DNA from: Rhodoferax sp.
GTDB lineage: Bacteria; Pseudomonadota; Gammaproteobacteria; Burkholderiales; Burkholderiaceae_C
DNA length: 45,093 nt
Direction: 5' to 3'
Assembly: GCF_010365055.1 (NCBI RefSeq)
Contig: NZ_JAAFHA010000021.1
Span: forward strand, 1 to 45,093
Of this stretch, positions 699 to 31,085 are shown one piece after another (the first letter of the stretch is position 1; every line of letters begins with the position of its first letter). The position numbers were made by a program, and so were the translations under genes. The notes under the pieces were generated by a model. The model saw only the letters and a list, made by a program, of their open reading frames with translations. It had not been told where the DNA came from and did not search any database.

Positions 699-714
699 GC
701 GCAAGGACATCATC

Positions 715-3804: not shown

Positions 3805-3859
3805 AGTAACCTGAACTGTTGCCAGCGCAAGCCACACCCGACGCGACCGGGGGCTTGCG

Positions 3860-3879
3860 GGGCGCTCAGTCGAGCGCCC
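3860..3879. terminator. Hairpin between converging ttrA and ttrR
   Basis: The perfect inverted repeat GGGCGCTC-agtc-GAGCGCCC overlaps the ttrR stop codon, in the 61-bp gap where ttrA and ttrR converge. There is no clear T-tract on either side, so it may only stabilise 3' ends or act as a weak bidirectional terminator. Confidence 0.35.
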
Positions 3880-6260: not shown

Positions 6261-6305
6261 GCTTACAGCAACAAGGGGCTTGGGACGGGCATCACACATG
6301 GCCTT

Positions 6306-9715: not shown

Positions 9716-10732
<1,017 letters not shown>

Positions 10733-10748
10733 GCGGTTTTCGCTACCC

Positions 10749-10779
10749 AAAAAAAAACGCGCCTTCGGGCGCGTTTTTT
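10749..10779 (+). terminator. Intrinsic terminator after gap
   Basis: The stem CGCGCC-TTCG-GGCGCG (10758-10773) has an extra-stable UUCG tetraloop. It is flanked by A9 upstream and T6 at 10774-10779, so it can work on either strand. It closes the tkt-gap transcript 25 bp after the stop codon. Confidence 0.95.
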
Positions 10780-10782
10780 ATG

Positions 10783-10884
10783 AGCCGCGCTTCCAGGCGC
10801 CCCGATGATCAGCCACGACATGCCGAAACGGTCGGCCACCATGACAAAGGACGAGGCAAAAAAGTTTTGCCCAGCGACCTCAGC
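10783..10884 (-). pseudogene. Vestigial C-terminus of a VOC/PhnB-type glyoxalase-fold protein
   Basis: On the minus strand, just past the hypE stop, about 34 codons read like the end of PhnB-like VOC proteins. The segment contains QNFFASSFVMVADRFGMSWL followed by IIGAP, close to the usual FxxxFGMVxDRFGVSWMI ending. There is no start, no N-terminal domain and no timely stop: the frame runs on into the gap terminator. This is best explained as a truncated relic left by a rearrangement between gap and the hyp operon. The homology call is from remembered family sequence and should be checked. Confidence 0.5.
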
Positions 10885-13071: not shown

Positions 13072-13310
13072 GACGCCGCAGCAACTGATTCGGACATTTC
13101 AGAAAACAGCGCCAGCGTGCGTTCGGCCTCTTGCGGGTCCAGTTTTGACAGCGCATAACCCACATGCAGAATCACATAGTCGCCGACCTGAACATCGTCC
13201 AGCAGCGCCAGCGAGATTTCTTTTTTGACGCCCCCCAGATCAACGATGGCCCAATCGCCCGCCGGGCCGCAACCGACTTCAATCACTTTGACCGGTAGTG
13301 CAAGACACAT
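13068..13310 (-). CDS. hypC: Hydrogenase maturation chaperone HypC
   Basis: An 80-residue OB-fold chaperone starting MCLALP, with the essential Cys2 that binds the iron centre and the hydrogenase large-subunit precursor. GDYVILHVGYALSKLD is the conserved C-terminal half. It overlaps the 3' end of hypF by 32 bp and the start of hypD by 4 bp, consistent with coupled translation. It could also be the HupF/HypC paralogue, but with hypD directly downstream HypC is the natural reading. Confidence 0.96.
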   Translation of the reverse strand: MCLALPVKVIEVGCGPAGDWAIVDLGGVKKEISLALLDDVQVGDYVILHVGYALSKLDPQEAERTLALFSEMSESVAAAS

Positions 13311-15648: not shown

Positions 15649-16568
15649 GCCTGCGCCTGCTGCAAGCGCGCTTCCAGATGGGCAATACGCGCCTTCAGCC
15701 CGTCCACCGTCTGCTGCCGGTCGGCGCTGGCCTGGGCTATGCCATCACGCAGAAAGGCCAGCCACTCGTCCATGCCTTCGCCACTGGTGGCCGAGAGTTC
15801 AATGACATGAATACCAGGATTGACCCGGCGCGCGAAGCCGATGGCTGCATCCACGTCGTAATTCAAATGCGGCAGCAGGTCAATCTTGTTGAGCAGCATC
15901 AGGCTGGCGGCACGGAACATGTCGGGGTACTTGATCGGTTTGTCTTCACCCTCGGTGACCGACAAGATCACTACCTTGTGTGCTTCACCCAAGTCAAAGG
16001 CGGCGGGGCACACCAGGTTGCCCACGTTTTCAATCATCAGCAGGGACTCATCCTCCAGCTTGAGTTGTTCCATCGCGTGCCCGACCATGTGGGCATCCAG
16101 ATGACAGCCCTTGCCGGTGTTGATCTGGATCGCCTGCGCACCGGTGGCGCGAATGCGGTCAGCGTCCTGACTGGTTTGCTGATCGCCTTCAATCACTGCC
16201 ACGGCTTGCTGGCCCAACAGGGCAATGGTCTTGCACAGCAGCGTGGTCTTGCCGGAGCCGGGGCTGGACACCAGGTTCAGCGCAAAAATGCCGCGTTCAG
16301 CCAAACTTTGCCGGTTGGCCTGCGCGTAAGCGTTGTTCTTGGCCAGAATGTCCTGCTCAATCTGCACCATGCGCTTCGGACTGAGGCCGGGGGCGTGCGA
16401 ATGGGTGTGCGCCTCGCCGTCACCATGGACGTGGTCGTGCTGATGGTCATGGTCATGGCGGTGGCGGCTGCCATCCGCATGCACATGCTCGTGCACAGCG
16501 TCATGCTTATGAGCGGGCTCGCCCTCGATCCTGACTTCACCCAAACCGCAGCCACAAGTGACACACAT
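15645..16568 (-). CDS. hypB: Nickel-binding GTPase HypB
   Basis: A 307-residue GTPase that inserts nickel into the [NiFe]-hydrogenase large subunit together with HypA. The N-terminus carries CVTCGCG, the CxxCGC-type high-affinity nickel site. A histidine-rich stretch (about 20-58, more than 15 His) can store nickel or zinc. The G domain has the P-loop [10 protein letters not shown], the switch and metal region ([11 protein letters not shown]) and NKIDLL. It is the second gene of the operon, 76 bp after hypA, and overlaps the hypF TTG start. The long His-rich segment marks it as the storage type, unlike the E. coli form. Confidence 0.96.
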
Positions 16569-16644
16569 AGCCAGTCTCCTTATTCAATCAGTTGAGGACA
16601 GAGTTAAGCTCGCTTCACGTCGCTGCGGTCTGTCCGACACTGTC

Positions 16645-16986
16645 TCAGGATACTTCAAGTTCCTTGACCCGCATCTCCGTACCACCGGTGACCTGCAGCC
16701 GGTAGCCGCCGCAGTGCGGGCACTCGCCAAACACCTCTGTCATCGGCACCGTCTTGGCGCAAGCCATGCACCAACCGGCTCCAGGCAAGGTGATGATCTC
16801 CAGCCGCGCTCCTTGGGCAAGGCTATCCCGCATCACCGCATCAAAGCAAAATAGCATGGCTTCGGGCTCGACGCCCGAGAGCTGGCCAATTTCCAGCCAG
16901 ACCGCGGTGACTTTTGTGAAGTGATCCCGGCGTGCTGCGTCTTCCATCAGTTGCAGCACACTCTCCGCGAGTGACATTTCGTGCAT
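16645..16986 (-). CDS. hypA: Nickel metallochaperone HypA
   Basis: A 113-residue nickel chaperone. It starts MHEMSL, where the His2 side chain and N-terminus bind nickel. Its zinc site is formed by CMAC (about 73-76) and CPHC (about 89-92). It hands nickel to the hydrogenase with HypB. It is the first gene of the hyp operon, whose promoter must lie in the 168-bp gap shared with the divergent HDOD gene. I found no convincing -24/-12 (sigma-54) or -35/-10 element there. Confidence 0.96.
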   Translation of the reverse strand: MHEMSLAESVLQLMEDAARRDHFTKVTAVWLEIGQLSGVEPEAMLFCFDAVMRDSLAQGARLEIITLPGAGWCMACAKTVPMTEVFGECPHCGGYRLQVTGGTEMRVKELEVS

Positions 16987-18191: not shown

Positions 18192-18221
18192 TTGACATCA
18201 AAAAGCAGCAAGTGGTCTAAT
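18192..18221 (+). promoter_or_regulatory. Sigma-70-type promoter for the cytochrome locus
   Basis: A perfect -35 TTGACA (18192-18197) is followed after 18 bp by TCTAAT (18216-18221), 4 of 6 to the -10 consensus with the key A and final T. This predicts a start near 18228 and a leader of about 43 nt before the first monoheme cytochrome. Confidence 0.6.
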
Positions 18222-18270
18222 TTGCCGTTGTAGACATGTCACTTACTCTTTACTTTGATTGGAACGCAAA

Positions 18271-18615
18271 ATGTTCAAGACCACTCTCTCTGTTGTTAGC
18301 GCATCGATCCTGTTCGCCTTTGCCAGCGTGGTCCCGGCGCATGCCGCCGTTGATGAAGATGCTGCTAAAGCCCTGTTCAAAAAGAACGACTGCACCAAAT
18401 GCCATTCGGTTGATAAAACCAAGAAAGGCCCTTCGCTGAAGAAAATCGCGGCGGATCTCAAAGGCAAACCTGACGCTCAGGCCACAGTCATCAAGAACAT
18501 GACAACTGGGCCAAAGGTCAAGCTTCAGGACGGCACCGAGCAAGAACACAAAGTGATCGACGCCAAAGACGACAAAGAACTGAAGAACTTGGCTGACTGG
18601 ATTCTTGCGCAGTAA
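18271..18615 (+). CDS. Small periplasmic monoheme c-type cytochrome
   Basis: A 114-residue class-I-like cytochrome. Residues 1-25 are a Sec signal ending in PAHA. The single heme site is CTKCH (Cys41-His45). A normal class I cytochrome has an axial Met about 17 residues before the final Trp-Ile-Leu; here that place is His93 (EQEHKV). Met77 is the only Met in the mature part and is not kept in the neighbouring paralogue. So the iron may be bis-His ligated, which would mean a low potential (inference). ATG 18271 is chosen for the GGAA just upstream. It is the first gene of the EET locus and probably shuttles electrons across the periplasm, in a position like that of MtoD beside mtoAB in iron oxidisers. 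Confidence 0.85.
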   Translation: MFKTTLSVVSASILFAFASVVPAHAAVDEDAAKALFKKNDCTKCHSVDKTKKGPSLKKIAADLKGKPDAQATVIKNMTTGPKVKLQDGTEQEHKVIDAKDDKELKNLADWILAQ

Positions 18616-18714
18616 ATTGCCAGGCGCGTGATTTCGGGGACGGCGTTGGCAGCGATATTTATGACTGACACCGCTTTCTACGATTAAGTTAGCGCGTCAG
18701 AAAGTCAAAAAACT

Positions 18715-18748
18715 AAACGCCAATCGCAACCAGCGGTTGGCGTTTTTT
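18715..18748 (+). terminator. Intrinsic terminator or attenuator between the two monoheme cytochrome genes
   Basis: AAACGCCAA (18715-18723) pairs with TTGGCGTTT (18737-18745) across a 13-nt loop and is followed by a run of seven T. The loop contains a competing small stem, AACC-agc-GGTT. The next start codon is only 28 bp beyond, too close for a promoter in between. The downstream gene must be reached by read-through, or from a promoter upstream of the hairpin. Confidence 0.75.
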
Positions 18749-18775
18749 TCGTTCAAAAAGAGCAAGGGGAATGGC

Positions 18776-19282
18776 ATGAAGCACTTGATGGTTCGATGGG
18801 GTACATGTGGGTTGGTATTGCTGGCCTTGGCGGGATGCGACGGCGGCAGTGGCCAGCCAGCGGCACCGGCTGCGACTGCAAGCGAGGCTGTGACCGCAGC
18901 ACCGGCCACTGTCGTCGTAGAGGCGGCGCCAGCGCCACCGCCTGCTGCCATAGTCGCCGCTCCCCAGCCACCGCCGGCCGCTGTCGTCAGTGCCGCCGCG
19001 CCGACCCGCGCAGCTGCCGATCCCGATGCCGCTCAAGCTTTGTTCAAGGCGAATGACTGCACCAAATGCCATGCGGTTGACAAGGTCAAGAAGGGCCCTT
19101 CCCTGAAGAAGATTGCTGCCGATCTCCGGGGCAAGGCCGACGCGCAGGACAACGTCATCAAGAACATAACAACCGGACCGAAGATCAAGCTGGCAGACGG
19201 CACCGAGCAAGAACACAAGATCATCGACAGCAAAGACCAAAAAGAACTGAAGAATCTGGCCGACTGGATTCTTTCGCAGTAG
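18776..19282 (+). CDS. Monoheme c-type cytochrome lipoprotein with Ala/Pro tether
   Basis: A 168-residue lipoprotein: the signal peptide ends in the lipobox LALAGC (Cys21). An Ala/Pro/Val-rich tether (about 27-80) leads to a cytochrome domain (81-168) nearly identical to the preceding gene's product. The heme site is CTKCH (Cys95-His99). There is no Met anywhere in the cytochrome domain, so Met ligation is excluded. His147 sits at the axial position. ATG 18776 with AAGGGGA upstream is better than the TTG at 18737, which would put charged residues before the signal. It is a tandem duplicate that gained a membrane anchor, probably attaching the same redox module to a membrane's periplasmic face. 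A strong hairpin lies directly upstream. Confidence 0.85.
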   Translation: MKHLMVRWGTCGLVLLALAGCDGGSGQPAAPAATASEAVTAAPATVVVEAAPAPPPAAIVAAPQPPPAAVVSAAAPTRAAADPDAAQALFKANDCTKCHAVDKVKKGPSLKKIAADLRGKADAQDNVIKNITTGPKIKLADGTEQEHKIIDSKDQKELKNLADWILSQ

Positions 19283-19499
19283 TTTTAAAGGCGGCCTGCC
19301 CTTGTCTTCTGCGACGCAGTTGACGCGAAAATGACTAAAGGAAGTGGCCAATTGTGTTCAGCGACAGGCATTTCTTCAATAAATTCGGATGGCGGACAAA
19401 AAAATCTAAACTTGGTACTACGATAGCTCCCAAACGTTTTTTGCTTGCCTTTCAAAGGTCTTGCGCCGTGAACGTTAATTGGTTTTGAAAGGACTTAGG

Positions 19500-20429
19500 A
19501 TGAATATTAAAAGCCTATTCGCCATTGCCGGCATCTGTCTATTTGGTTTTTTTGGCCCTGCCTTGGGCGCCGATGCGGAGCCTACTGGCGCAGCGTTCTG
19601 CGTCACCTGTCACGACGACGAAGACCTTCCAGACATGAGTCGTTCGGCGCACGGTTTTGCCGCCGACAAGCGTGCCCCGGATTGCATTAGTTGCCATGGC
19701 GCCAGTGAGACTCACGCCCGCCAGCCGGCCGGGGTCTCGGTCCAGCCCAAGCCTGATTTCACCTTTGGCAAAAAGAGCGGAAAACTCTCCGCCTTGGCGG
19801 CCAATGATCGCAGCCGGGTTTGCCAGACTTGTCATGACAAAGATGCCAAGCGTGCCTTGTGGTCCGGCAGTCAACACCAGGCGGCCGATGTTGCCTGCGA
19901 CAGTTGCCACCAGGTGCACGCCAACCGCGACAAGACCTTGAACAAGCTCACGCAGCCAGAGACTTGTTACACCTGCCACAAGGAGCAACGCAGCCAGATG
20001 AACAAGCCCTCACACCATCCGGTACCTGAAGGCAAGATGACGTGTTCTGACTGTCACAATCCGCACGGCTCGGCCGGTCCCAAACTGGTCAAGCGCGACA
20101 GCATCAATGACACCTGCTACACCTGCCACGCTGAAAAGCGCGGGCCGTTCGTGCATCCGCATGAGCCAGTCGCTCAAGACTGTTCCACCTGCCACAACTC
20201 GCATGGCAGCATGATCCCGGGCATTCTCAAGGCACGTGCGCCCATCCTGTGTCAGCAATGCCATACGCCGCACTCGGCCGCCAATGTCGGCACGATTGCG
20301 TCTGGTTCCGTCGGCTTCAACGCTGTTGGCATGTGGCAAGGCCGCAGTTGCATGAACTGCCACACACAGGTTCATGGCTCTAACAATCCGTCGACGACCT
20401 TGCCGACCCCACAAACGTTGATGCGCTGA
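19500..20429 (+). CDS. mtrA: Decaheme periplasmic cytochrome, MtrA/DmsE family
   Basis: A 309-residue secreted cytochrome (signal peptide about 1-24, ending ALGA). It has exactly ten CXXCH sites, with first cysteines at 34, 62, 108, 133, 156, 182, 206, 228, 251 and 284. This is the count and size of MtrA, MtoA and DmsE. In characterised systems MtrA sits inside the MtrB barrel and conducts electrons through the outer membrane. The ATG at 19500 follows AAAGGA by about 7 bp. The mtrB-like gene follows after 16 bp, so the two are co-transcribed. Length fits the short MtrA type and not PioA, which has an N-terminal extension. Direction of electron flow cannot be read from the gene. Confidence 0.93.
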   Translation: MNIKSLFAIAGICLFGFFGPALGADAEPTGAAFCVTCHDDEDLPDMSRSAHGFAADKRAPDCISCHGASETHARQPAGVSVQPKPDFTFGKKSGKLSALAANDRSRVCQTCHDKDAKRALWSGSQHQAADVACDSCHQVHANRDKTLNKLTQPETCYTCHKEQRSQMNKPSHHPVPEGKMTCSDCHNPHGSAGPKLVKRDSINDTCYTCHAEKRGPFVHPHEPVAQDCSTCHNSHGSMIPGILKARAPILCQQCHTPHSAANVGTIASGSVGFNAVGMWQGRSCMNCHTQVHGSNNPSTTLPTPQTLMR

Positions 20430-20445
20430 AAAACGGAGAACAACA

Positions 20446-22536
20446 ATGACTTCATTCATTTTTTCACTTCGCGCCAGACGAACCGCCGTGGCGCTTGCAG
20501 TTGGTGCTGCCTGCATGACCGCGCATGCACAGGACGCTAGCGTCGAGACCACGGTCAGCGTCGGCGTGGGTGCCATCAATGGCTCCAAGGCCGACCGTGC
20601 ACTTTTTGGTCAGTACAACGGATTGCAGGATGACAGCGTTGTCGGTATGCTGGGTGTCGATTACAGTCTGCGCAATCAGGAGTCTTTCGCCTGGGTGGAG
20701 TTGCAGGGCGCCAATTTGCTTGGCGACACACGCGAACTGGGCCTGGTCTGGAAGAAGCCGGGCAGTTGGAAGTTCACCGCTGACTATGGTGAGTTGGTTC
20801 GCTATGAGCCCAACACCATCAATACCGGTTTGCTTGGCGCGGGCTCAACGACACCTCAGGTGTTCGCCATTGCTGCTGGCACTGGCAATGACCTCAATCT
20901 GAAGACCAAACGCACCGGTCTGGGCCTGGGGTTTACCAAGATCATCTCGCCTGCGTTGCAGCTACAGGTGGATGTCAAAAGCGAAAACAAGACAGGCGCG
21001 CGGCCTTTCGGCGCCTTCCTGAACTGTCTGGCGTCAACAACTTCCACCTGCTTGGCTGTCCCTGGGTTGCCGGTGCTGATGCTGCCCGAGCCGATCGACG
21101 CTAACCACAGCCAGGTCGAAGCCCGACTGAGCTATGCCATGGAGAAGCTGCGTTTCAGTGTTGGCTACTATGGATCGTTCTACCGCAATGCCCACACCGC
21201 CTTAAATCCCAGCGGCCCGAGCGCGGGATTTGGCGTCAATGAGACCTTGTTGGCACTGCCGCCAGAAAATCAGGCGCACCAGATAGACCTGAGTGGCAGC
21301 TACGACTTCACCGGCAGCACCCGCGGCACGGTCAAGCTGGGTTACACCACGGCAACCCAAGACGCTGGCTTCGTCAGCGCCGGCCCGGCCGCAAATCTGG
21401 GTGCCCAAGTCAATACCACGTTGGCCAAAGTCGGACTGACTTCGAGGCCAATGCCCAAACTCTCATTGCTGGCTGACCTGCGCTACGAGAACAGGGACGA
21501 CCAGACGCCACTCGCCAATTACAACAGCGTTGGCACCAATCGCCAACTTTCCAGCGAAAAGACCCAAGGCAAGCTGCAGGCCAGTTGGCAATTTACCAGC
21601 GACTACCGCGGTACGCTGGGTGCAGACTACGAATCCATTGATCGTGGCGTGTTCACCGCCAGCAGCGTTTTATCCAGCATGGTCCCCTTGCGGCAGAAGA
21701 CCGAAGAGGCCGGCGTTCGCGCCGAGCTGCGGCGCCGTTTGGCCGATGACTTGAGCGGCGCCATCAGCGTCTCCAGCAGTCGACGTGATGGATCAAACTG
21801 GCTCCAAGGGAACCCAGGAGCGCCTGGCGTTCATGAGGTTGCCGACCCTGCCAGCAGCTTCGACTTGACCCAGTCCGTGTTCATGCCAACGTTGGCCGAT
21901 CGCCAACGCGACAAAATCAAGCTGTTTGCCGATTGGCAAGCAAATGAAAAGCTCAGTTTGCAGTTCAGCGCTGAAGAAGGCAAAGACAAGTTCAGCACAC
22001 CCAGTGCCTACGGGCTGCAAAATACCCGCATGAGCCAATTGGGCGTTGATTGGGGCTATGCCGTTAACTACAACTGGGCCTTGAACGGCTATCTGTCGCG
22101 CAGTGGCCAGACCATCAACCAGGCACGTTACGCTGGGTCTGTGATGGCATTTGACAACACAAATTTGACCGCATCCATCGGCATCACCGGCAAAGCGGCC
22201 AGCAAGGTCCACGTGGGCGGTAGCCTGACTTACGTGGACGACAAGAGCGTCTACGCGCAAACACTGACTGCTTCGGCACCACCGACCCTTCTGGCAGGCG
22301 GGGGTTTGCCAGACATTGTGTACCGCCAGACCGCTTTGAAGTTGTTTGGCAGCTATGCGCTCGAGAAAGGTTCTTCAGTGCGTCTTGATTTCGTACACCA
22401 GCATGTCAGTGCGAATGATTGGGCTTGGGGAAATAACGGTACCCAGTTCGCGTATTCGGACGGCAGCACGGTGACGCAGAGCCAAAATCAAAACGTCAAC
22501 TTCATAGGCGTGACCTATATCTACCAGCTGCCGTAG
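20446..22536 (+). CDS. mtrB: Outer-membrane beta-barrel porin of an Mtr conduit (MtrB/PioB family)
   Basis: A 696-residue protein with a signal peptide (about 1-28, ending AHAQ) and alternating beta-strand pattern throughout. It contains KTGARPFGA (182-190), a motif I recognise from the MtrB/PioB/DmsF family. It forms the transmembrane sheath around the decaheme MtrA encoded just upstream. No CXXC motif is present near the mature N-terminus, unlike Shewanella MtrB. The only mature cysteines, Cys194 and Cys202, lie in a loop insertion and could form a disulfide. It ends in YIYQLP and not the common terminal Phe. A 16-bp gap from mtrA and a terminator directly after it define an mtrAB unit. Confidence 0.92.
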   Translation: MTSFIFSLRARRTAVALAVGAACMTAHAQDASVETTVSVGVGAINGSKADRALFGQYNGLQDDSVVGMLGVDYSLRNQESFAWVELQGANLLGDTRELGLVWKKPGSWKFTADYGELVRYEPNTINTGLLGAGSTTPQVFAIAAGTGNDLNLKTKRTGLGLGFTKIISPALQLQVDVKSENKTGARPFGAFLNCLASTTSTCLAVPGLPVLMLPEPIDANHSQVEARLSYAMEKLRFSVGYYGSFYRNAHTALNPSGPSAGFGVNETLLALPPENQAHQIDLSGSYDFTGSTRGTVKLGYTTATQDAGFVSAGPAANLGAQVNTTLAKVGLTSRPMPKLSLLADLRYENRDDQTPLANYNSVGTNRQLSSEKTQGKLQASWQFTSDYRGTLGADYESIDRGVFTASSVLSSMVPLRQKTEEAGVRAELRRRLADDLSGAISVSSSRRDGSNWLQGNPGAPGVHEVADPASSFDLTQSVFMPTLADRQRDKIKLFADWQANEKLSLQFSAEEGKDKFSTPSAYGLQNTRMSQLGVDWGYAVNYNWALNGYLSRSGQTINQARYAGSVMAFDNTNLTASIGITGKAASKVHVGGSLTYVDDKSVYAQTLTASAPPTLLAGGGLPDIVYRQTALKLFGSYALEKGSSVRLDFVHQHVSANDWAWGNNGTQFAYSDGSTVTQSQNQNVNFIGVTYIYQLP

Positions 22537-22598
22537 TCAGATGCTGGCAAAGCCGGAGCCGCGTGGATCAAGCGCTGCCCGGTGGACTTCAAAAAAAG

Positions 22599-22637
22599 AC
22601 AACCCGGATATGGCGACGTATTCGGGTTGTTCTTTTG
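22599..22637 (+). terminator. Intrinsic terminator after the mtrB-like gene
   Basis: ACAACCCGGATA (22599-22610) pairs with TATTCGGGTTGT (22619-22630), 12 bp with one G-T pair, followed by TTCTTTT. It separates mtrAB from the surface cytochrome gene, which therefore needs its own promoter. Confidence 0.85.
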
Positions 22638-22680
22638 CACGCGGCATGGGCGCCGGTCTAGAGAAGCCCATGCCGCTGCA
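22636..22680. other. Strong stem-loop just after the mtrB terminator
   Basis: GCGGCATGGGC (22641-22651) and GCCCATGCCGC (22666-22676) form a perfect 11-bp stem with a 14-nt loop. Outer TGCA arms extend it past one bulged base. No T-tract follows on the plus strand, so it is not a standard terminator. It could be a backup 3' structure, a processing site or a protein-binding palindrome. Confidence 0.6.
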
Positions 22681-23026
22681 AGTTGATCAAAAAAAAATTC
22701 GAAGTCAACCCCCCAATCATTTCAGCCGCCCAGTGTGGAGTCTCAAGCTTGAGGGTTGCCACGGGAGCACGGTCCATGCTGGCAGGAGCGTATACCAATA
22801 CGGTCAGAGTCACAGGACCGGCCGTCGCCAATCCATTAGAAGCAACAGATCCATATATTGATATATCTTTATATCAGGTTGCGATAATATTTTTCGAGTT
22901 TGACATAACGCAAACAGTGCACTTTTCTCTCTGCCACGAATTCCTCTCAAGGTAGTACAAACACCTACGCACGTAAAGATGTGTGAACGCGGTGCGAAGT
23001 TTGTATTAATCATTAAGGAGTTCTCA
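22681..23026 (+). promoter_or_regulatory. Leader region of the surface decaheme gene
   Basis: This gap is AT-rich compared with its surroundings. It holds a 12-bp palindrome (CTCAAGCTTGAG, 22742-22753). It also holds an 18-bp interrupted palindrome, TGATATA-tctt-TATATCA (22859-22876). The palindrome overlaps a possible -35 TTGATA (22858-22863), with GATAAT at 22883-22888, a long 19-bp spacer. A perfect TTGACA at 22900-22905 has no matching -10. The start is therefore uncertain, but a regulated promoter here is expected because a terminator isolates the gene from mtrAB. Confidence 0.4.
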
Positions 23027-25672
23027 GTGAAATATTCTGAACTTTCAAGTAAAAAGCGGACAGGGCCGACATGGCTCAAGTTCGCTGCGGCGAGCTTGCT
23101 CGCGGTCGCACTCGCGGGTTGCGGTGGCGGCGATGATGGTGCTGCTGGCGCTGCTGGCCCTGCTGGTCCTCCCGGCCCTCCCGGCCCTGTAGCTACAACG
23201 CCTGCCACTGTGGTCAACCTCGCCACCGTGAGCGCAGACGCTTGGGCCAATCTGACGCCCGTGGGTACGGTTCAGTCGGTTGCAATCAATGGCGCCCCCG
23301 AGGTCTCATTTACCGTAACTGATGGCACCAATCCCGTGGTCGGTCTGGCCGCCTCGCAGCTGCGCTTTACCATTGCCAAACTGGTTCCCGGCGCGAATGG
23401 CAGCCCGAGCAAGTGGGTGAATTACATTGTGGGTAATCCTGATACCGGTGCGCCGGGTCGCCCAACCACTGACAGCGTTGCGGCGAATCTGGTCGCCACT
23501 GGCGATGGCACCTACAAGTACACGTTCTCGCGCGACATTACCGGCCCGCTGCAGACCAAGATGGTCGCTTGGTTTGCCGATGCAGCCAATGCCGCATCGC
23601 CCTACAAAAAGGCCGATGTCATGGGTGCCGACGGGACGCTGCTGGACTATGTTCCTGCCCTGCATCACCGTCTGGTCATTCAGCTCTCGGGTTCAGTTAA
23701 CAATGTTGCTCTGAAAAACCCGATCAATGTGGTCTATGACTTCATCCCTGCGACCGGTCAGGTCGTTGCCGCTGCCGACTCGCAGCGCGAGATCGTGGCC
23801 ACAGCAAAGTGCAACGAGTGCCATGACAAAATTGGCGTCACGACCCCGCATGGTGGCCGTGTCGACACCCGGTACTGCGTGACTTGCCATACCGACCAGC
23901 GTAAGAACGGCCAAGCTCTGGCAACGTCGATCAGTGGTGCGTTCCCCGCGCTAACCAAAACCATAGCCGCCGATGGCCGCATTAGCTATAGCCCAAACAC
24001 CTATGTTGCCGATGGCCAGGTCAGTGGCAACTTCACGACCATGATCCACAAGGTGCACATGGGCAATAGGCTGACCAAGGCCAACTACAACTACGCGAGT
24101 GTGCTGTTCAACAAGGTTGCCTACACGCAAGAGGTTACAAACTGCACCAAGTGCCATGACAATTCAGCCACTTCAAGCGCGAAGACAACACAGGGTGACA
24201 ACTGGAAGCAAGCACCCAGCATTCTGGCCTGCGGCTCTTGCCATGACGGCATCAATTTTGCCACTGGTGCCGGAACAACGGCTGCGGGCGCGACCACCGG
24301 TCACATGGGTGGTGCGGTTCAGCTCTCTGACGACAAGGATTGTCTGGTTTGCCACAAAGTTGGTGGGCTCAAAGACATCGCGATCGCGCATGCTGGCGTC
24401 AACATGACCCCGCATAACCTGACGGTGCCAGCCGGCCTGACGAACTTCACCTACGACGTCAAGACCGTCACCGTGAACGCCAGTAACCAGCCAGTGGTGA
24501 CATTCAGAGTCATGAAGCAGACTGCGCCTGAAGCCACGGCCACGCCGGTCGTCTTCGACGGAACCAGTACCAACTCGCTGGTCGGCTTCACTGGCAATCC
24601 GTCCTTCCTGGTCGGTTACGCCGCTGCGCAGGACGGAATCGCCACCCCGGTTGACTTCAATAACCTGGGCAAGAAAAACGGTCAGCCAGCAACTGTCGGC
24701 ATCAACACCCTGATGAGTACTCTGGGCGCACCTGACGCCAGCGGCTACTACACCGTCGCCCTGACCTCAGCGGCTGCGGCGTTCCCGGCGGGTGCCAAGC
24801 TGCGTACGATTGCGCTGCAAGGCTACTACACCCAAGCCGCTGGCACCAACGGCATTGCAGCCAACACGGCCCGTCACACGCTGTCGAGTGTCAAAGCCGT
24901 CAGCGGCGAAGACCGCCGTGCCATCGTCGAAGCCGCCAAGTGCAGTAACTGCCATGAAGTCTTTGAAGGCCATGGCGGCAACCGCAACATCGGTAAGCAA
25001 ACCGTTGGCAATACCCTCGTCTGCGCCGTCTGTCACAACCCGACCATTGTCACCAGTGGCCGTGGCATCAGCGACACCGCACTGCAGGCTTTCCCGTTCA
25101 CGGCTGCCAACTTGGCAACTTTGACATCATGGGGTGTTGACAGGCTCGCAGTGAATGGTGCCTTGGCGTTCCCGCAGGTTAGCAACAACTTCAAGGACAT
25201 GATTCACGGCATCCACGCTGGCAAAGCCCGTAGCACAAATCCGTTCCGGATTGCTCGTGGCAGTCGGATGCCGAGTGCGCTTCCTCTGATTGACGGCGCG
25301 GACATCACCTTTGTCGGTATCCTGAACAACTGCCAGACCTGCCACAAAGCCGGTACCTACAGCACTGTGCCAGCGAACACACTTCCTTCACGAGACGAAG
25401 CAAACAATGGCGTGTTCCTGAATGGTGTGAGCCGGACTCCTGCTGACGCGCAGGCCGCGCTGGAGACCACCAATGCCACTGATTTGATGACAACGCCGTT
25501 CACCGCATCCTGCGCCAGCTGCCATGACGCAAGTCCGGCTGTCGCGCACATGAAGCTCAATGGCGGTCAGATCCTGGTCACACGCAGTATGGTCAGCACA
25601 GCCGGCGAGACATGCGCTGTGTGTCACAGCACTGGCAAGATCGCTGATGCAGCCGTAGCCCATACCAAGTAA
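23027..25672 (+). CDS. OmcA/MtrC-family decaheme outer-membrane surface lipoprotein
   Basis: An 881-residue decaheme lipoprotein. It starts at GTG 23027, set by AAGGAG at 23015-23020, and its lipobox is ALAGC (Cys32). Directly after the anchor comes a collagen-like run of six Gly-X-Y triplets (38-55). There are exactly ten CXXCH motifs, five in a cluster in the first half and five in the second. The two heme clusters are separated by a beta-rich segment, as in the alternating split-barrel and pentaheme layout of MtrC/OmcA. From family knowledge it is the cell-surface terminal of the conduit, passing electrons to minerals, humics or other cells. It stands alone between two intrinsic terminators. 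MtrC versus OmcA cannot be decided, so no symbol is given. Confidence 0.92.
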   Translation: MKYSELSSKKRTGPTWLKFAAASLLAVALAGCGGGDDGAAGAAGPAGPPGPPGPVATTPATVVNLATVSADAWANLTPVGTVQSVAINGAPEVSFTVTDGTNPVVGLAASQLRFTIAKLVPGANGSPSKWVNYIVGNPDTGAPGRPTTDSVAANLVATGDGTYKYTFSRDITGPLQTKMVAWFADAANAASPYKKADVMGADGTLLDYVPALHHRLVIQLSGSVNNVALKNPINVVYDFIPATGQVVAAADSQREIVATAKCNECHDKIGVTTPHGGRVDTRYCVTCHTDQRKNGQALATSISGAFPALTKTIAADGRISYSPNTYVADGQVSGNFTTMIHKVHMGNRLTKANYNYASVLFNKVAYTQEVTNCTKCHDNSATSSAKTTQGDNWKQAPSILACGSCHDGINFATGAGTTAAGATTGHMGGAVQLSDDKDCLVCHKVGGLKDIAIAHAGVNMTPHNLTVPAGLTNFTYDVKTVTVNASNQPVVTFRVMKQTAPEATATPVVFDGTSTNSLVGFTGNPSFLVGYAAAQDGIATPVDFNNLGKKNGQPATVGINTLMSTLGAPDASGYYTVALTSAAAAFPAGAKLRTIALQGYYTQAAGTNGIAANTARHTLSSVKAVSGEDRRAIVEAAKCSNCHEVFEGHGGNRNIGKQTVGNTLVCAVCHNPTIVTSGRGISDTALQAFPFTAANLATLTSWGVDRLAVNGALAFPQVSNNFKDMIHGIHAGKARSTNPFRIARGSRMPSALPLIDGADITFVGILNNCQTCHKAGTYSTVPANTLPSRDEANNGVFLNGVSRTPADAQAALETTNATDLMTTPFTASCASCHDASPAVAHMKLNGGQILVTRSMVSTAGETCAVCHSTGKIADAAVAHTK

Positions 25673-25712
25673 GCCAACTTAGAGGGGCTGGTTTTACAGT
25701 CCTCTTTACTCT

Positions 25713-25751
25713 GAAGACCCCGCCGTGTCACCACGGCGGGGTCTTCTTTTT
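25713..25751 (+). terminator. Very strong intrinsic terminator after the surface decaheme gene
   Basis: GAAGACCCCGCCGTG (25713-25727) and its exact complement (25732-25746) form a perfect 15-bp stem with a TCAC loop, followed by T5. It starts 40 bp after the stop codon. Confidence 0.95.
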
Positions 25752-25914
25752 GGTGCGCCCACCCTGGGTGCCGAGCCGGCCCTGCACGTTCTTCGGTGAC
25801 TGGGTTTAGACTCAGGCCCATGGGCAATCTGCCGATCCGACAGCGAATCCGACCTACTATTTAAAATCTCCCCGTTGATAGCCATATTGGCCCAAGCATT
25901 TCACAAGGAATCTC

Positions 25915-26328
25915 ATGAAGCCCCTTATTTCCATTGTCTTCACCACGGTCGTCGCGCTGGTGGCCGCTAGTGCTTCTCTGGCTGCCCAAAGCCAGGCTCC
26001 TGCCCCAGCGCAAGTCGCAAGCCCTGCTGCGTGGCCAACGGGTGCTCCCAACAAGAGCCAGGTCAAGACCAAGCCACAAGCTGCCGCCAAGATCAAACTG
26101 ATCGACATCAATAGCGCCAAGAAGGAAGAGCTCAAGACCCTGCCAGGCATCACGGATGCTGAAGCCGCCAAGATCGTTGCCAACCGACCCTATGGCAGCA
26201 AGGCCTGGCTGGCGAGCGACAACATCCTCACCCAGGAAAAATACTTGACGATCAGCAAACTGGTCATCGCCAAACAGCCCTACAAGGATGCCGCCAAGAA
26301 TGCCGCGTTGTATAGGAACAAGAAGTAG
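25915..26328 (+). CDS. Secreted helix-hairpin-helix protein (ComEA/PsbU-like)
   Basis: A 137-residue protein with a signal peptide (about 1-24), an Ala/Pro/Gln/Lys-rich linker (about 25-57) and one HhH domain. The domain starts IDINSAKKEELKTLPGI and includes the hairpin LPGITDAEAAKIV. It has no cysteine, so no heme. The same fold occurs in the competence DNA receptor ComEA and in PsbU, an extrinsic photosystem II subunit that sits near cytochrome c550. AAGGAA upstream supports the ATG. It is bracketed by terminators and lies between the surface decaheme gene and the quinol-linked cytochrome gene. It may bind DNA (for example extracellular DNA) or serve as a cytochrome-docking protein; the sequence does not decide. 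Confidence 0.75.
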   Translation: MKPLISIVFTTVVALVAASASLAAQSQAPAPAQVASPAAWPTGAPNKSQVKTKPQAAAKIKLIDINSAKKEELKTLPGITDAEAAKIVANRPYGSKAWLASDNILTQEKYLTISKLVIAKQPYKDAAKNAALYRNKK

Positions 26329-26368
26329 CGGCGATTGCATGACCGGGTCACCGGCGAAGAATTCATAG

Positions 26369-26403
26369 AACCCGGAGTTGGTAGCAGCTCCGGGTTTTCT
26401 TTT
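26369..26403 (+). terminator. Intrinsic terminator after the HhH gene
   Basis: AACCCGGAG (26369-26377) pairs with CTCCGGGTT (26388-26396) across a 10-nt loop and is followed by TTCTTTT. It lies 40 bp after the stop codon. Confidence 0.85.
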
Positions 26404-26484
26404 GTCAGCGACAGATGCCCCCAACGCAGCCGCTGCGAACCGGCACTGCAGCACATGCAGCAGTGCGCGAGTCGCCACCCCCAC

Positions 26485-26498
26485 TTGATCTATGTCAC
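26485..26498 (+). promoter_or_regulatory. FNR/Anr-like operator upstream of the c/b cytochrome gene
   Basis: TTGAT-CTAT-GTCAC matches the anaerobic-regulator consensus TTGAT-N4-(A/G)TCAA at nine of ten defined positions. It is 75 bp before the start codon. A candidate promoter, TTTACA (26503-26508), 17 bp, CACAAT (26526-26531), would place the box near -46. It suggests induction when oxygen is low. This is a single-site match and could be chance. Confidence 0.4.
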
Positions 26499-26572
26499 AG
26501 TGTTTACAGTACTTAACAGAGTGGACACAATTGAAGTTAAACTTCCCCGTCTAACAATGTGGAGACTTTCCC

Positions 26573-28564
26573 ATGCGATTTGTGCGTTCGGCCCTAGGGG
26601 CCACTTTTCTTTGTCTTGCAAGTGTGCTGTTGGCCTTACCCGCCAGCGCCGCCTCGCCTCTTGACAATGCCACTTGCTTGAGCTGCCATGATGGCAAGAA
26701 AGGCAATCTCGAAGTACCGGCCGCTGACGGCTCAAAGCGGGCGCTGCACAGCGTTGCACCCGACAAGTTTGGCCAGAGCGTGCACGCCCAGATGCAATGC
26801 GTGGCCTGCCACACCGACATCAAGGACAACGCCGAAACCGCCAATGCCCACGCCAAGGACCCAGCGCAAGCGCTGAAGAAAGTGGACTGCGCCGGTTGCC
26901 ACCAAGACTTGTGGGACCAGGCGCAAAAAGACAGCAGCGCCAAGAGCAAGCCCCGTCTTGAGTTGGTAGCCAAGAACATTGCAGCGTACAAGAACTCCTT
27001 CCACGCGCGCCCCAGTGCCGACGACAACACCAAGCCCAATGCCTCGTGCGACAACTGCCACGACACGCACAGCTTCAACGTCCCAGCCAAGGATTCGCCG
27101 CAGTACAACGACTGGCGCCTGACTATTTCGAACACCTGCGGCACCAGCTGCCATGATGACCAGCTAGAAACTTATGCCGGCTCGGTGCACGGCCAGGAAG
27201 TGCTGGACAAGAAGAACCCCAAGGCCGCGGTTTGCTCTGATTGCCATACCGCGCATGCGGTCGTCAATTCTTCGAGCGACCCCTTCAAGCTTGCCGTGAC
27301 CGACCAATGCGGTTCGTGCCATGAAGAAAACCTCAAGACCTACAAAGGCACCTTTCACGGTCAGATCAGCACGCTGGGCTACGCCTACACTGCCAAGTGC
27401 TACAACTGCCACGGCAGCCACGAGATATTGAGGGCTGACGACCCCAAATCCAAGGTTCATGTCAACAACCGTTTGGAGACCTGCCGCGAATGCCACAGCG
27501 GTAAAAAAGAATTGGCTCTGGCGCCGGCCGGTTTTGTCAGTTTTGAGCCGCATGGTCATGTCAATGATTTCAACCGTTACCCGCAAATCTGGGTGGCCTG
27601 GCAGATCATGGTGCAGCTGCTGGTGGGCACCTTTGGCTTCTTCTGGGTGCACACGCTGCTGTGGTTCTACCGCGAATTCAAGGAACGCAAAGCCACCAGC
27701 GCGCATCGGCGCATCAAGGCCGAAGCGGTGCCGACGCACCTGAAAGGCAAACACGTCAAGCGCTTCAGCTTGACCTGGCGCATTGCCCACATCACCTTTG
27801 CCCTGAGCTTGATGGTGCTGACCATCACCGGTATGCCGCTGTTCTATGCTGACGTGTCCTGGGCGCCTGTCATCATGACGGCGCTGGGCGGTCCGCAAAC
27901 CGCTGGCCTGATCCACCGTGTAGCGGCGGTCATTTTTGCCGGCGTGTTCTTCTGGCACCTGATCTACATCACGGTGCGCATTGCCAAAGACTGGAAGAAC
28001 TTCAAGTTCTTCGGCCCGAACTCGCTGGTGCCCAACCTGCAAGACGGCAAAGACATGCTCGCCATGTTCAAGTGGTTCTTTGGGCAAGGCCCGCGTCCGG
28101 TATTTGACCGCTGGACCTATTGGGAGAAGTTTGACTACTGGGCTCCGTTCTGGGGTGTCACCATCATCGGTGTCAGCGGCTTGATGATGTGGTTCCCCCA
28201 TTTCTTCGGCGCGTTCCTGCCGGGCTGGGTGTTCAACGTGGCGGCCATCTTCCACGCTGAAGAAGCGTTTCTGGCGGTGGTGTTCCTGTTCACCGTGCAC
28301 TTCTTCAACAACCACTTCCGTCCTGACAAGTTCCCGCTTGAAGTGGTGATGTTCACCGGCACCTTCTCGCTTGAAGAGTTCAAGCACGACCATGGCGTTG
28401 AGTACCAGCGCCTGGTTGACACCGGTGAACTGGAGAAATACCTGGTGGACGCACCGTCACCCGCCAAGATGGCATTCTCCCGTGCGCTGGGCTTTGTGCT
28501 GATCTGTATTGGCCTGACCCTGCTGACACTGGTTGCGATCGGCTTCTTTAGTAGCAGCCACTAA
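26573..28564 (+). CDS. Inner-membrane multiheme c / b-type cytochrome fusion (CbcL-like quinol oxidoreductase)
   Basis: A 663-residue protein. The signal peptide (about 1-27) is followed by a periplasmic domain with eight CXXCH sites (first Cys at 35, 76, 106, 159, 221, 246, 276 and 304). A ninth, atypical CX3CH site lies at 189-194 (TCGTSCH). The C-terminal half (about 340-655) is a cytochrome b561/FdnI/HydC-like membrane domain. Helices such as RIAHITFALSLMVLTITG, the following GLIHRVAAVIF and FFWHLIYI, and FHAEEAFLAVVFL carry the His ligands for two b hemes. Nine c-heme sites plus a diheme b domain is the layout described for Geobacter CbcL, which takes electrons from quinol to the periplasm. 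Here it probably does the job of CymA for the Mtr conduit. It has its own leader with an FNR-like box. Confidence 0.85.
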   Translation: MRFVRSALGATFLCLASVLLALPASAASPLDNATCLSCHDGKKGNLEVPAADGSKRALHSVAPDKFGQSVHAQMQCVACHTDIKDNAETANAHAKDPAQALKKVDCAGCHQDLWDQAQKDSSAKSKPRLELVAKNIAAYKNSFHARPSADDNTKPNASCDNCHDTHSFNVPAKDSPQYNDWRLTISNTCGTSCHDDQLETYAGSVHGQEVLDKKNPKAAVCSDCHTAHAVVNSSSDPFKLAVTDQCGSCHEENLKTYKGTFHGQISTLGYAYTAKCYNCHGSHEILRADDPKSKVHVNNRLETCRECHSGKKELALAPAGFVSFEPHGHVNDFNRYPQIWVAWQIMVQLLVGTFGFFWVHTLLWFYREFKERKATSAHRRIKAEAVPTHLKGKHVKRFSLTWRIAHITFALSLMVLTITGMPLFYADVSWAPVIMTALGGPQTAGLIHRVAAVIFAGVFFWHLIYITVRIAKDWKNFKFFGPNSLVPNLQDGKDMLAMFKWFFGQGPRPVFDRWTYWEKFDYWAPFWGVTIIGVSGLMMWFPHFFGAFLPGWVFNVAAIFHAEEAFLAVVFLFTVHFFNNHFRPDKFPLEVVMFTGTFSLEEFKHDHGVEYQRLVDTGELEKYLVDAPSPAKMAFSRALGFVLICIGLTLLTLVAIGFFSSSH

Positions 28565-28617
28565 AAAGGCAGCGCCCCTGGGTTGCCAGTGGCGCTTCTG
28601 TAGAAGACCTAAATTAG

Positions 28618-28648
28618 AACGCCGGGCATCGTCACGATGCCCGGCGTT
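28618..28648. terminator. Bidirectional hairpin between converging genes
   Basis: AACGCCGGGCATC and its exact complement GATGCCCGGCGTT form a 13-bp stem with a GTCAC loop. It lies between the converging CbcL-like gene and hemG. T-tracts are weak on both sides (TCCATTTCC on plus). Confidence 0.75.
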
Positions 28649-28671
28649 TCCATTTCCGCATGCGCAACAAC

Positions 28672-29202
28672 TCAGGGCATGTCGCAGACCCGCTGGGCAA
28701 AGGACTCCACCTGTTGCCAGTCGGTGAACTCGATCACCGCCTTGGGGTCGGTCGGGCCGTTCGTCATGAACATGATCAGGCGAATCATGAAGCGGTCGAC
28801 CAAGCGGTAGCGCGGGTAGTCGAGCTTGCCGGCAAAGACACCCAGCAATTTGGGCTGCCAGCTGACCGTGCGCAGGAACTTGATCAGGTAGGGGTTGGTG
28901 TCAGGCCGGTTCTTTTCCGGCTTGCGCGCCACGATGTTGACGGTGAAAAAGGCATTGGCCTTGCTCTGCAGCAGCGCCTGATGGCGCTCAATGAATTGCT
29001 TGACCGTCGGCTGGTGCTTGCCGTAGCGGATGCTGGCGCCAATGACGATCTTGTCAAAACTGGCCAAATCCAGCGCATCGGCCTGGGCCAGCGGCTCGAC
29101 CGTCACGGTGTTGCCCTGCTGCGCCATGACTTGCTGCAAGCGCTCGCAAATGCGGCGCGTATGGCCATCGGTGGTCGAGTACGCGACAAGAATCTTGCTC
29201 AT
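28672..29202 (-). CDS. hemG: Protoporphyrinogen IX dehydrogenase (quinone), HemG
   Basis: A 176-residue flavodoxin-fold enzyme oxidising protoporphyrinogen IX to protoporphyrin IX with quinone as acceptor, a late step of heme synthesis. The N-terminal FMN loop is YSTTDGHTRRI. IGASIRYGKH, VARKPEK and YPRYRLVDRFMI are strongly conserved with E. coli HemG, including the long insert that marks HemG apart from other flavodoxins. The ATG at 29202 has AAGGAA upstream; an in-frame upstream start at 29232 is less likely. It converges on a gene for a nine-heme cytochrome in a locus needing over thirty hemes per full set of proteins, so a supply role is plausible. Confidence 0.93.
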   Translation of the reverse strand: MSKILVAYSTTDGHTRRICERLQQVMAQQGNTVTVEPLAQADALDLASFDKIVIGASIRYGKHQPTVKQFIERHQALLQSKANAFFTVNIVARKPEKNRPDTNPYLIKFLRTVSWQPKLLGVFAGKLDYPRYRLVDRFMIRLIMFMTNGPTDPKAVIEFTDWQQVESFAQRVCDMP

Positions 29203-29402
29203 TCCTTTTCCTTGGTCTGAAACCCTCGGCAATGCCGGTGGATTGGTTGCTTCAGCCAGGGACGGCCCGCCAATTGGCCCCGCCCCAAGCGATCATCGGA
29301 ATTATCCGCGCTATGTGCGCCAGCACACCGACCCGGTCAAGGCGCTGCAACAGAATGTTCTAGTTACCCGTCCTGCCTTGTCAGATCCCTCCGAAAGTCA
29401 CC

Positions 29403-31025
29403 ATGTTAAAAAACAAATTCATCCCCTGTGCGTTGCTGGCCTTGAGCCCCGCTGTCTTTGCTGCGCCGCCGGACGCTGGCAGCCAGATGCAGCAAATTCC
29501 GCCTGCGCCAATCCAACGGCCCGCAGAGCCGGGTATTGACTTCAAGCCCATCAGCCCAGCGGCCATGGCCGCACCAGACAACGCAAGAATCACCGTCAAC
29601 CAGTTGCGCGTCACCGGCGCCAAGGTCTATTCTGAGGCAGACTTGCTCGCCATCACCGGCTTCAAGGCAGGCAGCGAACTCTCGCTGACTGATTTGCGCG
29701 GCATGGCCGCACGCATCGCCGACCACTACCACCGCAACGGCTATTTTGTGGCCCAGGCCTACCTGCCGGCGCAAGACATCAAAAACGGCATCGTCACCAT
29801 CGCCGTGATCGATGGGCAATACGGCAAGGTCGCGCTGAACAACCAGACCAATGTGTCCAACGCGCTGGCCAACAACCTGCTCAGCGGCCTTAACAGCGGC
29901 GATGTGGTGGCCTCAGGCCCGTTAGAGAATCGCCTGCTGCTGCTGTCTGACCTGCCCGGCGTCAAGGTCAACTCGACCCTGGTTCCCGGCGCTACGGTCG
30001 GCAGCTCCGACCTACTTGTCAACATGACACAGGGCCCCCGTATCAGCGGCAGCATTGATGCCGACAACGCTGGCAACTATTACACCGGCGAGTACCGTAT
30101 TGGTGCCACCGTCAACTACAACGAACCGCTGGGCCTGGGTGATGTGGCCTCGCTGCGGGTGTTGACCTCCGGCAAAGGGTTGAACTATGCCCGCGGCTCC
30201 TACCAGCTGCAATTGGGCAAAGCCACGGTTGGCGTCGCCTACAGCGCGCTGGAATACGAACTTAGTCGTGGGGCTTACGAGGGCTTAGGCTACAACGGCA
30301 CAGCCAAGGTTGCCAGCCTTTACGGCAGCTACCCCCTGATCCGCTCACGCAACAACAACCTGTACGCCGGGCTCAGCTACGACGACAAAACGTTTGAAGA
30401 CAATATTAACTCGACGACCCTGCGTGACAAGAAGGCCCAGGTCTTGACGGCCAGCCTGTCCGGCAACCGGCGTGACAGCTTGGGTGGTGGCGGTGTCACC
30501 GGCTATTCGCTCGCCTTGAGCGCTGGCAACATCGACAACAGCAACCCTGGCGAGATCAATGGCAACTTCAACAAGCTCGGTTTCAGTCTGTCGCGGCTGC
30601 AGCGCGTAACCGATACCGTCTCCTTGTCCGCAGTGGCAAACGGCCAACTCGCTTCCACGGCCCTGGACTCGTCCGAACAAATGGAGCTCGGCGGCATGTA
30701 TGGCGTGCGCGCCTATCCGGAAGGTGAAGGTTATGGCGACGAAGGCGTGGTGCTGAATCTGGAAGCGCGCATGCAGTTGCCCAAATTCTCTGACAGCATG
30801 CCGGGCCAGTTGCAGCTGATCGGCTTCGTCGATGCAGGCACCGTGCGCGCGCACAACGCGGACGATCGCCGCACCCTGAGCGGCGCCGGCGTCGGCCTCA
30901 ACTGGTCGGACACCAACAACTTCATGGTGCGGGCCTATTACGCCGGCAAGATTGGTGATGAAGATGCCACCTCGGCGCCCGACAAGTCGGGTCGCTTCTG
31001 GATTCAGGCTGTCAAGTATTTCTAA
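29403..31025 (+). CDS. TpsB outer-membrane transporter (FhaC/ShlB/HecB family)
   Basis: A 540-residue two-partner secretion transporter. The signal peptide (about 1-20, ending VFAA) is followed by a Pro-rich linker and POTRA-type domains; the first begins ITVNQLRVTGAKVYSEADLL (about 61-80). The C-terminal 16-strand barrel (about 205-540) carries GVRAYPEGEGYGDEG, the family's VRGY-type motif with Ala in place of Gly. The protein ends in Phe, as expected for BAM-assembled barrels. It recognises the N-terminal secretion domain of its TpsA partner, encoded 60 bp downstream, and threads it through the outer membrane. The divergent 200-bp gap to hemG presumably holds its promoter. Confidence 0.92.
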   Translation: MLKNKFIPCALLALSPAVFAAPPDAGSQMQQIPPAPIQRPAEPGIDFKPISPAAMAAPDNARITVNQLRVTGAKVYSEADLLAITGFKAGSELSLTDLRGMAARIADHYHRNGYFVAQAYLPAQDIKNGIVTIAVIDGQYGKVALNNQTNVSNALANNLLSGLNSGDVVASGPLENRLLLLSDLPGVKVNSTLVPGATVGSSDLLVNMTQGPRISGSIDADNAGNYYTGEYRIGATVNYNEPLGLGDVASLRVLTSGKGLNYARGSYQLQLGKATVGVAYSALEYELSRGAYEGLGYNGTAKVASLYGSYPLIRSRNNNLYAGLSYDDKTFEDNINSTTLRDKKAQVLTASLSGNRRDSLGGGGVTGYSLALSAGNIDNSNPGEINGNFNKLGFSLSRLQRVTDTVSLSAVANGQLASTALDSSEQMELGGMYGVRAYPEGEGYGDEGVVLNLEARMQLPKFSDSMPGQLQLIGFVDAGTVRAHNADDRRTLSGAGVGLNWSDTNNFMVRAYYAGKIGDEDATSAPDKSGRFWIQAVKYF

Positions 31026-31085
31026 GGCCGTTGTCCTGCAATTGAGCCTTGAACACAGATTTTTTAAGATTTTTGGAGTGAACTC

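Follow-up and report, generated by a model that had tools for sequence, protein, structure and literature searches.

In Shewanella, the outer-membrane conduit MtrCAB is fed by the tetraheme CymA, for which menaquinol is the electron donor. A further group of proteins is the CbcL family, whose c-type part carries 3-23 heme motifs, and the CbcL homologues MtrH of Rhodoferax ferrireducens and MtoC of Dechloromonas (D. aromatica) and Gallionella are encoded in clusters with mtrAB or mtoAB (PMC6295460). In R. ferrireducens two cymA genes and mtrH share the cluster with mtrABC (PMC6295460); mtoC and mtoD are almost confined to the Group 4 betaproteobacterial mtrCAB clusters (PMC8805035). R. ferrireducens is called an iron reducer (PMC8805035) and is stated to make rhodoquinone (PMC6529003). 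Here we describe an Mtr locus in a 45,093-nucleotide stretch of Rhodoferax sp. (contig NZ_JAAFHA010000021.1, hereafter the window), in which a compact Mtr conduit would be fed by an MtrH-type quinol oxidase, the predicted quinones being ubiquinone and rhodoquinone. We consider this reading evenly balanced between right and wrong, a judgement that applies to the whole chain and is not a share apportioned among rival explanations. A first-pass annotation of the window had read the locus as a hybrid of an Mtr conduit and a CbcL-type enzyme. This architecture is not new, since MtrH or MtoC beside mtrAB or mtoAB (PMC6295460) and the Group 4 clusters (PMC8805035) had been described; any novelty may lie in the quinone.

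Composition of the Mtr locus

Seven genes follow one another on the plus strand between positions 18259 and 28564, in the order mono1, mono2, mtrA, mtrB, mtrC, HhH (helix-hairpin-helix) gene and mtrH:

18259-18615, plus strand: mono1, MtoD-like monoheme cytochrome c, soluble in the periplasm, signal peptide present; probable start codon ATG 18271
18715-18745, plus strand: terminator-like hairpin in the mono1/mono2 gap; 13-pair stem, T tail
18737-19282, plus strand: mono2, close to a duplicate of mono1 but lipid-anchored; probable start codon ATG 18776; lipobox LALAGC-D
19500-20429, plus strand: mtrA, periplasmic decaheme cytochrome c; 10 CXXCH; TIGR03508
20446-22536, plus strand: mtrB, outer-membrane barrel, MtrB/PioB; TIGR03509, PF11854
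22979-25672, plus strand: mtrC, OmcA/MtrC-family decaheme lipoprotein; 10 CXXCH; lipobox LAVALAGC (by eye); TIGR03507
25713-25746, plus strand: terminator-like hairpin 3' of mtrC; 15-pair stem, 11 GC pairs, T tail
25915-26328, plus strand: HhH gene, small exported helix-hairpin-helix protein, ComEA/PsbU-like; PF12836
26367-26398, plus strand: terminator-like hairpin 3' of the HhH gene; 14-pair stem, T tail
26573-28564, plus strand: mtrH (mtoC/cbcL-like), fusion of a periplasmic c-type part with nine hemes and a membrane part resembling the FdnI cytochrome b
28672-29232, minus strand: flavodoxin-domain gene, hemG-like, converging on mtrH; PF12724, 172 bits

This part list is certain. From mono1 to mtrH the genes contain 1, 1, 10, 0, 10, 0 and 8 CXXCH heme motifs, with one additional CX3CH in mtrH, and only four stray CXXCH occur beyond 18200-28700 in the six frames of the window, so that chance occurrence of the motifs is ruled out. 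Families were scored with Pfam and NCBIfam models against curated cut-offs. MtrA gives 299 bits with TIGR03508 (cut-off 192) and is the sole copy above cut-off in the genome; MtrB, whose gene adjoins mtrA across a gap of 16 bp, gives 531 bits with TIGR03509 (cut-off 240) and 501 bits with PF11854; MtrC gives 420 bits with TIGR03507 (cut-off 209), a single match genome-wide. With a decaheme MtrA, an adjoining MtrB barrel and a decaheme lipoprotein of the OmcA/MtrC family, the locus is a predicted MtrCAB conduit, the same outer-membrane conduit as that of Shewanella. The first-pass annotation had listed a c/b cytochrome fusion, two monoheme cytochromes, MtrA, MtrB and a decaheme lipoprotein. Heme counts and family matches confirm these parts, and the family assignments hold, including the FdnI fold of the b domain; the HhH gene had not been listed. 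The three strong terminator-like hairpins stand one each after mono1, mtrC and the HhH gene.

Both monoheme proteins match PF00034 and have one CXXCH each, mono1 with 41.8 bits (cut-off 21.3) and mono2 with 31.3 bits. In mono2 the lipobox is followed by an Ala/Pro-rich tether of ~60 residues and then by the monoheme domain, which is 82.5% identical to mono1 across 80 residues; mono1 is 70% identical to its counterpart in G046, the nearest relative found. In E. coli, Asp after the lipid-bearing Cys leads to retention in the inner membrane. Asp occupies this position in mono2 and Gly in the G046 copy, so the Asp rule does not fix the side on which mono2 is anchored. The HhH protein matches PF12836 with 31.5 bits (cut-off 27), and its gene neighbours mtrC in relatives too (46-63% identity in loci L121, L123, L130 and L132). 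Some mtrCAB clusters have been described as containing a conserved HhH gene, and hemG has been noted near mtrCAB of strain T118 (PMC8805035). This exported, ComEA/PsbU-like protein, encoded beside mtrC in several Mtr loci, perhaps binds DNA or protein at the conduit.

The c part of MtrH has eight CX2CH motifs and one CX3CH, a heme site that is aligned in 72 rows, and its C-terminal b part has an FdnI fold of six helices. His 406, 448, 561 and 576 are present in 72 of 72 aligned rows, and the best matches of the b domain are to formate-dehydrogenase gamma, below cut-off. On the strength of its multiheme N-terminus, its FdnI/HydC-like b part with conserved His and its kinship, the fusion is, by sequence, a member of the CbcL/MtrH/MtoC family. 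Geobacter CbcL, by its description, likewise has nine heme motifs and, C-terminal to them, a b domain of six helices that resembles FdnI/HydC; it is, however, only 35.7% identical to R. ferrireducens MtrH and has been proposed to feed Pcc conduits, not MtrAB (PMC6295460). A grouping of the fusion with thiosulfate or tetrathionate reductase b-subunits was also considered. This is out, given the nonaheme domain, the formate-dehydrogenase-gamma-like b domain and a clade shared with MtrH/MtoC of Rhodoferax, Ramlibacter and Gallionella; a TtrA homologue is nonetheless encoded in the same window (715-3804).

The R. ferrireducens locus (strain T118), probably represented by genome G003 (L130), has the order mtrC' (cut), mtrA, mtrB, mtrC, mtrC, HhH, monoheme, cymA, cymA, mtrH, hemG. 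It shares with the window the relative order mtrA, mtrB, mtrC, HhH, mtrH, hemG, with identities of 70% for MtrA, 69% for MtrB, 77% for MtrH and 88% for HemG. It differs in its extra mtrC copies and in the two cymA and one monoheme gene between HhH and mtrH, whereas the window has two monoheme genes before mtrA. Gene order is partly kept in G046, where mtrC-HhH-mtrH-hemG is followed by the same two-partner secretion gene as in the window (L132) and mono1-mono2-mtrC'-mtrA-mtrB lies on another contig (L133). In gene content the locus resembles the Group 4 clusters: mtrCAB of a betaproteobacterium is joined by an inner-membrane enzyme of MtoC type and a monoheme cytochrome of MtoD type. It differs in that no PF03264 protein was found in the genome and in that the second monoheme cytochrome is a tethered lipoprotein. 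In Gallionella-type loci (L034, L036, L057) these families recur as mtoC-mtoD-mtoA-mtoB, the MtoC-type proteins being 53-56% identical, but no MtrC-type gene was found in them and Mto is proposed to run inward.

Feeder enzymes, quinones and the neighbourhood of rquA

The source genome (G000, assembly GCF_010365055.1) comprises 4.33 Mb on 188 contigs, with a completeness estimate of 100 and contamination of 2.04. NapC/NrfH/CymA proteins (PF03264) gave no match in the whole genome, the E. coli control being positive, and a CymA/NrfH-type alternative elsewhere in the genome, which the first-pass annotation had left to be checked, is thus rejected; the tetraheme feeder of Shewanella was not found here. 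The family is present in 51 of the 89 genomes of our genus set. The search for menaquinone genes covered MqnA/D and MenD in the source genome: there was no match to MqnA/D, and MenD reached at best 52 bits against a cut-off of 244. By contrast, UbiG (281 bits, cut-off 103), UbiE (402 bits, cut-off 378) and the rhodoquinone enzyme RquA (317 bits, cut-off 175) all score above cut-off. The search for RquA went through 17 of the 20 PF08241 matches, and the hit was then confirmed with the model of its own family, which found none above cut-off in 14 control genomes. The predicted quinones are therefore ubiquinone and rhodoquinone, and not menaquinone. Because no menaquinone route (MqnA/D, MenD) was found, menaquinone is rejected as donor and the quinol of the locus should not be read as menaquinol. 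Although hemG is usually tied to menaquinone, the product of the hemG-like gene at 28672-29232 may use ubiquinone or rhodoquinone. FrdC was found neither in the source genome nor in G003, which leaves both without a detected FrdABCD, the classical outlet for rhodoquinol.

In relatives, rquA is a neighbour of mtrH. The MtrH loci compared were the best 80 of at least 584, several of which end at contig ends; some of the 80 come from genomes that are also in the genus set (for example L008/G051), and the two counts are not additive. In three of the 80, L016 (R. lacus), L018 and L019, mtrH is followed immediately by rquA with no frd between, RquA being named there by BLAST to that of the source genome (64-69%) and not by family model. 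In six others (L008, L010, L011, L013, L015, L071) rquA follows mtrH-frdABCD, so that frdABCD precedes rquA in six of nine rquA-bearing MtrH loci. The MtrH tree had 72 rows: besides the window it took in 71 loci whose cover reached 92% or more, and it left out shorter ones, L071 among these. All eight rquA-linked rows fall in a 19-row clade (SH-aLRT 99) shared with MtrH of the window. We also observed that in L016 (mtrH then rquA, 9980-12803) no other multiheme or Mtr-type gene was found within 10 kb on either side.

Within the genus set, RquA is found in 56 genomes and MtrA in 49 (both above cut-off), and MtrH in 45. RquA and MtrH are both present in 38, and in 10 of these rquA lies 3.9-5.6 kb (start to start) from mtrH; in 13 other genomes it lies 1.2-1.45 kb from a NapC/CymA-type gene. 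Five cases of the first kind (L120, L121/L122, L123, L124 and L125) have the order mtrH-frdA-frdB-frdC-frdD-rquA, and an lpxC-like gene comes next; the frd genes are named by family match in L120 and L122 (FrdC under the NCBIfam and over the Pfam cut-off) and by position and similarity in the others. In three cases of the second kind, L126, L127 and L128, monoheme and NapC/CymA-like tetraheme genes lie on one strand and rquA, divergent from them, on the other, with the monoheme gene between; a CcmA gene lies beyond rquA in L126. This second arrangement is perhaps another rhodoquinone-linked module. The rquA arrangements are few and inherited among related species, not independent events.

Co-occurrence was counted with PF03264 at E <1e-20 (46 of the 51 genomes), RquA, MtrA and FrdC above cut-offs and MtrH at E <=1e-60. 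Among the 50 good genomes, 24 have both MtrA and RquA, 5 MtrA only, 10 RquA only and 11 neither (P 0.014); the corresponding figures for MtrH and RquA are 22, 5, 12 and 11 (P 0.036), and both P values ignore shared ancestry. FrdC was not found in 41 of the 56 RquA genomes; of these 41, 37 have at least one of MtrA, MtrH and a NapC/CymA-type gene, and four have none of the three. MtrA and MtrH occur together in 22 good genomes, seven of them without a NapC/CymA-type gene at this threshold (G000, G016, G042, G046, G061, G073, G076), which makes the CymA-free set a minority variant, not a unique one. The source genome and G046 are the simplest case among the good genomes, with neither CymA nor FrdC found in them and menaquinone genes searched in the source genome only.

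Proposed electron route and alternative explanations

We propose that the FdnI-like cytochrome b part of MtrH oxidises a quinol of low potential, of which rhodoquinol is the likeliest, and that the electrons then reach the nine c hemes of MtrH on the periplasmic side. From there both monoheme cytochromes, the soluble and the tethered one, would ferry them across the periplasm to MtrA. MtrA would relay them, by way of the MtrB barrel, to the lipoprotein MtrC at the cell surface, where minerals of Fe(III) or Mn(IV), humics or an electrode would accept them. It is likely that the parts make up a single pathway, as the first-pass annotation had supposed: in gene order and content the locus agrees with that of probable R. 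ferrireducens, and the Gallionella-type loci carry the same families, although a second multiheme/cytochrome b pair exists elsewhere in the genome. Rhodoquinol, at -63 mV compared with +100 mV for ubiquinol (PMC6529003), is a tentative choice of donor, to which we give somewhat less than an even chance. The wider proposal is that Mtr of Rhodoferax is driven by rhodoquinol and not menaquinol, that MtrH (elsewhere a CymA/NapC-type enzyme beside rquA) acts as a rhodoquinol oxidase, and that rhodoquinone also serves extracellular electron transfer; this is possible, but a little more apt to fail than to hold. In the literature searched, which lacks most subscription papers, no title or opening of an abstract ties rhodoquinone to extracellular electron transfer, Mtr or CymA. 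The word 'extracellular' does not occur in the texts of the quinone papers PMC11707229 and PMC13386864, as searched for passages, and in one paper with both rhodoquinone and extracellular electron transfer the two terms are unrelated.

Several points weigh against rhodoquinol as the donor. In the source genome rquA is not in the mtr locus but at G000:C70, beside ruvC- and lpxC-like genes, and in G003 it is likewise by ruvC and lpxC (named by family in G003, by likeness in G000). FrdC is present in every one of the 10 genus-set genomes in which mtrH and rquA are closely linked, and locus L023 (Aromatoleum) has frdABCD near mtrH without rquA. To these are added the P values' neglect of shared ancestry, the five good genomes with MtrA and five with MtrH that have no RquA, and the 15 of 33 RquA-lacking genomes that still have MtrA, MtrH or a NapC/CymA-type gene. 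Rhodoquinone might then serve complex II solely (Sdh-type fumarate reduction), with MtrH using ubiquinol and the vicinity of mtrH and rquA reflecting a shared anaerobic regulon; the six loci in which frdABCD precedes rquA would fit, and fumarate reduction is the described role of rhodoquinol (PMC9814641, PMC5953543). We regard this as a serious contender but rather doubtful, in view of the three loci with mtrH-rquA and no frd between and of the 37 FrdC-lacking RquA genomes with MtrA, MtrH or a NapC/CymA-type gene. Ubiquinol is, moreover, a poor donor to low-potential Mtr hemes, which also counts against this reading. Its potential is +100 mV (PMC6529003).

The coupling of MtrH to this Mtr conduit also has evidence against it. 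At G000:C92 lies the gene for another nonaheme cytochrome, next to a separately encoded cytochrome b; the latter is of thiosulfate-reductase type (127 bits, below the cut-off of 204), and the pair is flanked by a histidine kinase gene and a response-regulator-like gene. The first-pass annotation had named a separate complete quinol-linked system elsewhere, with this locus silent, as grounds for refutation; the C92 pair leaves that objection partly standing, and no CymA/NrfH-type gene was found. Many MtrH genes stand without mtrAB inside the stretches examined, the Thiocapsa and Thiodiazotropha loci have no mtr gene nearby, and 9 of the 45 MtrH genomes have no MtrA above cut-off. MtrH and MtrCAB could accordingly be neighbours and not partners, MtrH serving another periplasmic acceptor and Mtr being fed by, for example, the C92 pair, and the terminator-like hairpins do divide the locus into modules. 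We nevertheless think this decidedly unlikely: mtrH lies within 23 kb of mtrA on the same contig in 14 genus genomes, an MtrH-type gene directly adjoins mtoDAB in the Gallionella-type loci, and the order mtrC-HhH-mtrH is kept in G046 and, with a monoheme and two cymA genes between, in probable R. ferrireducens. The flow could also be inward, as in Mto-like uptake, with Fe(II), Mn(II) or a cathode as the electron source for MtrC and MtrA and with ubiquinone reduced by MtrH. Ubiquinone genes are present, the same families form the Gallionella-type loci, and the CbcL/MtrH/MtoC family has been implicated in both directions (PMC6295460). Inward flow is unlikely, however: the genome has RquA, whose product is a quinone of low potential; the closest relative that has been characterised is described as reducing iron (PMC8805035); and no RuBisCO match was found genome-wide. 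The last result counts against Calvin-cycle growth on Fe(II), and RuBisCO carbon fixation was set aside. As a separate observation, the C92 nonaheme cytochrome (L088, 4741-6801) has a hydrophobic C-terminal segment and is an unfused counterpart of MtrH.

Flanking genes and significance

The window begins with a tetrathionate-reductase-like cluster (9-6299). Its TtrA homologue gives 1173 bits, below the strict cut-off of 1750, and its sensor kinase (4494-6299) has a phosphonate-binding-type domain; inspection by eye added a response regulator at 3866-4777 and, at 9-698, a membrane protein, possibly TtrC. Upstream of the Mtr locus, hydrogenase maturation genes occupy 10880-16986 on the minus strand, HypD and HypF being assigned by family and HypE-, HypB- and HypA-like genes by eye. 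A two-partner secretion pair (29403-34271) adjoins the Mtr locus; its ShlB/FhaC-type transporter is 88% identical to that of G046, and its partner appears by eye to be an FHA-like adhesin of 1061 aa in which the C-terminal domains are repeated.

Many betaproteobacteria make no menaquinone. Menaquinone genes have been named as a condition for the use of a transferred mtr cluster (PMC8805035). For testing, an organism in whose genome neither cymA nor a menaquinone route could be detected is cleaner than R. ferrireducens, because the latter has two cymA genes (PMC6295460). If rhodoquinol does feed MtrH, this would explain Fe(III) reduction by betaproteobacteria without menaquinone and would give rhodoquinone a second respiratory role. 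Furthermore, mtrH-rquA would then be a two-gene module that could be tested in bioelectrochemical strains.

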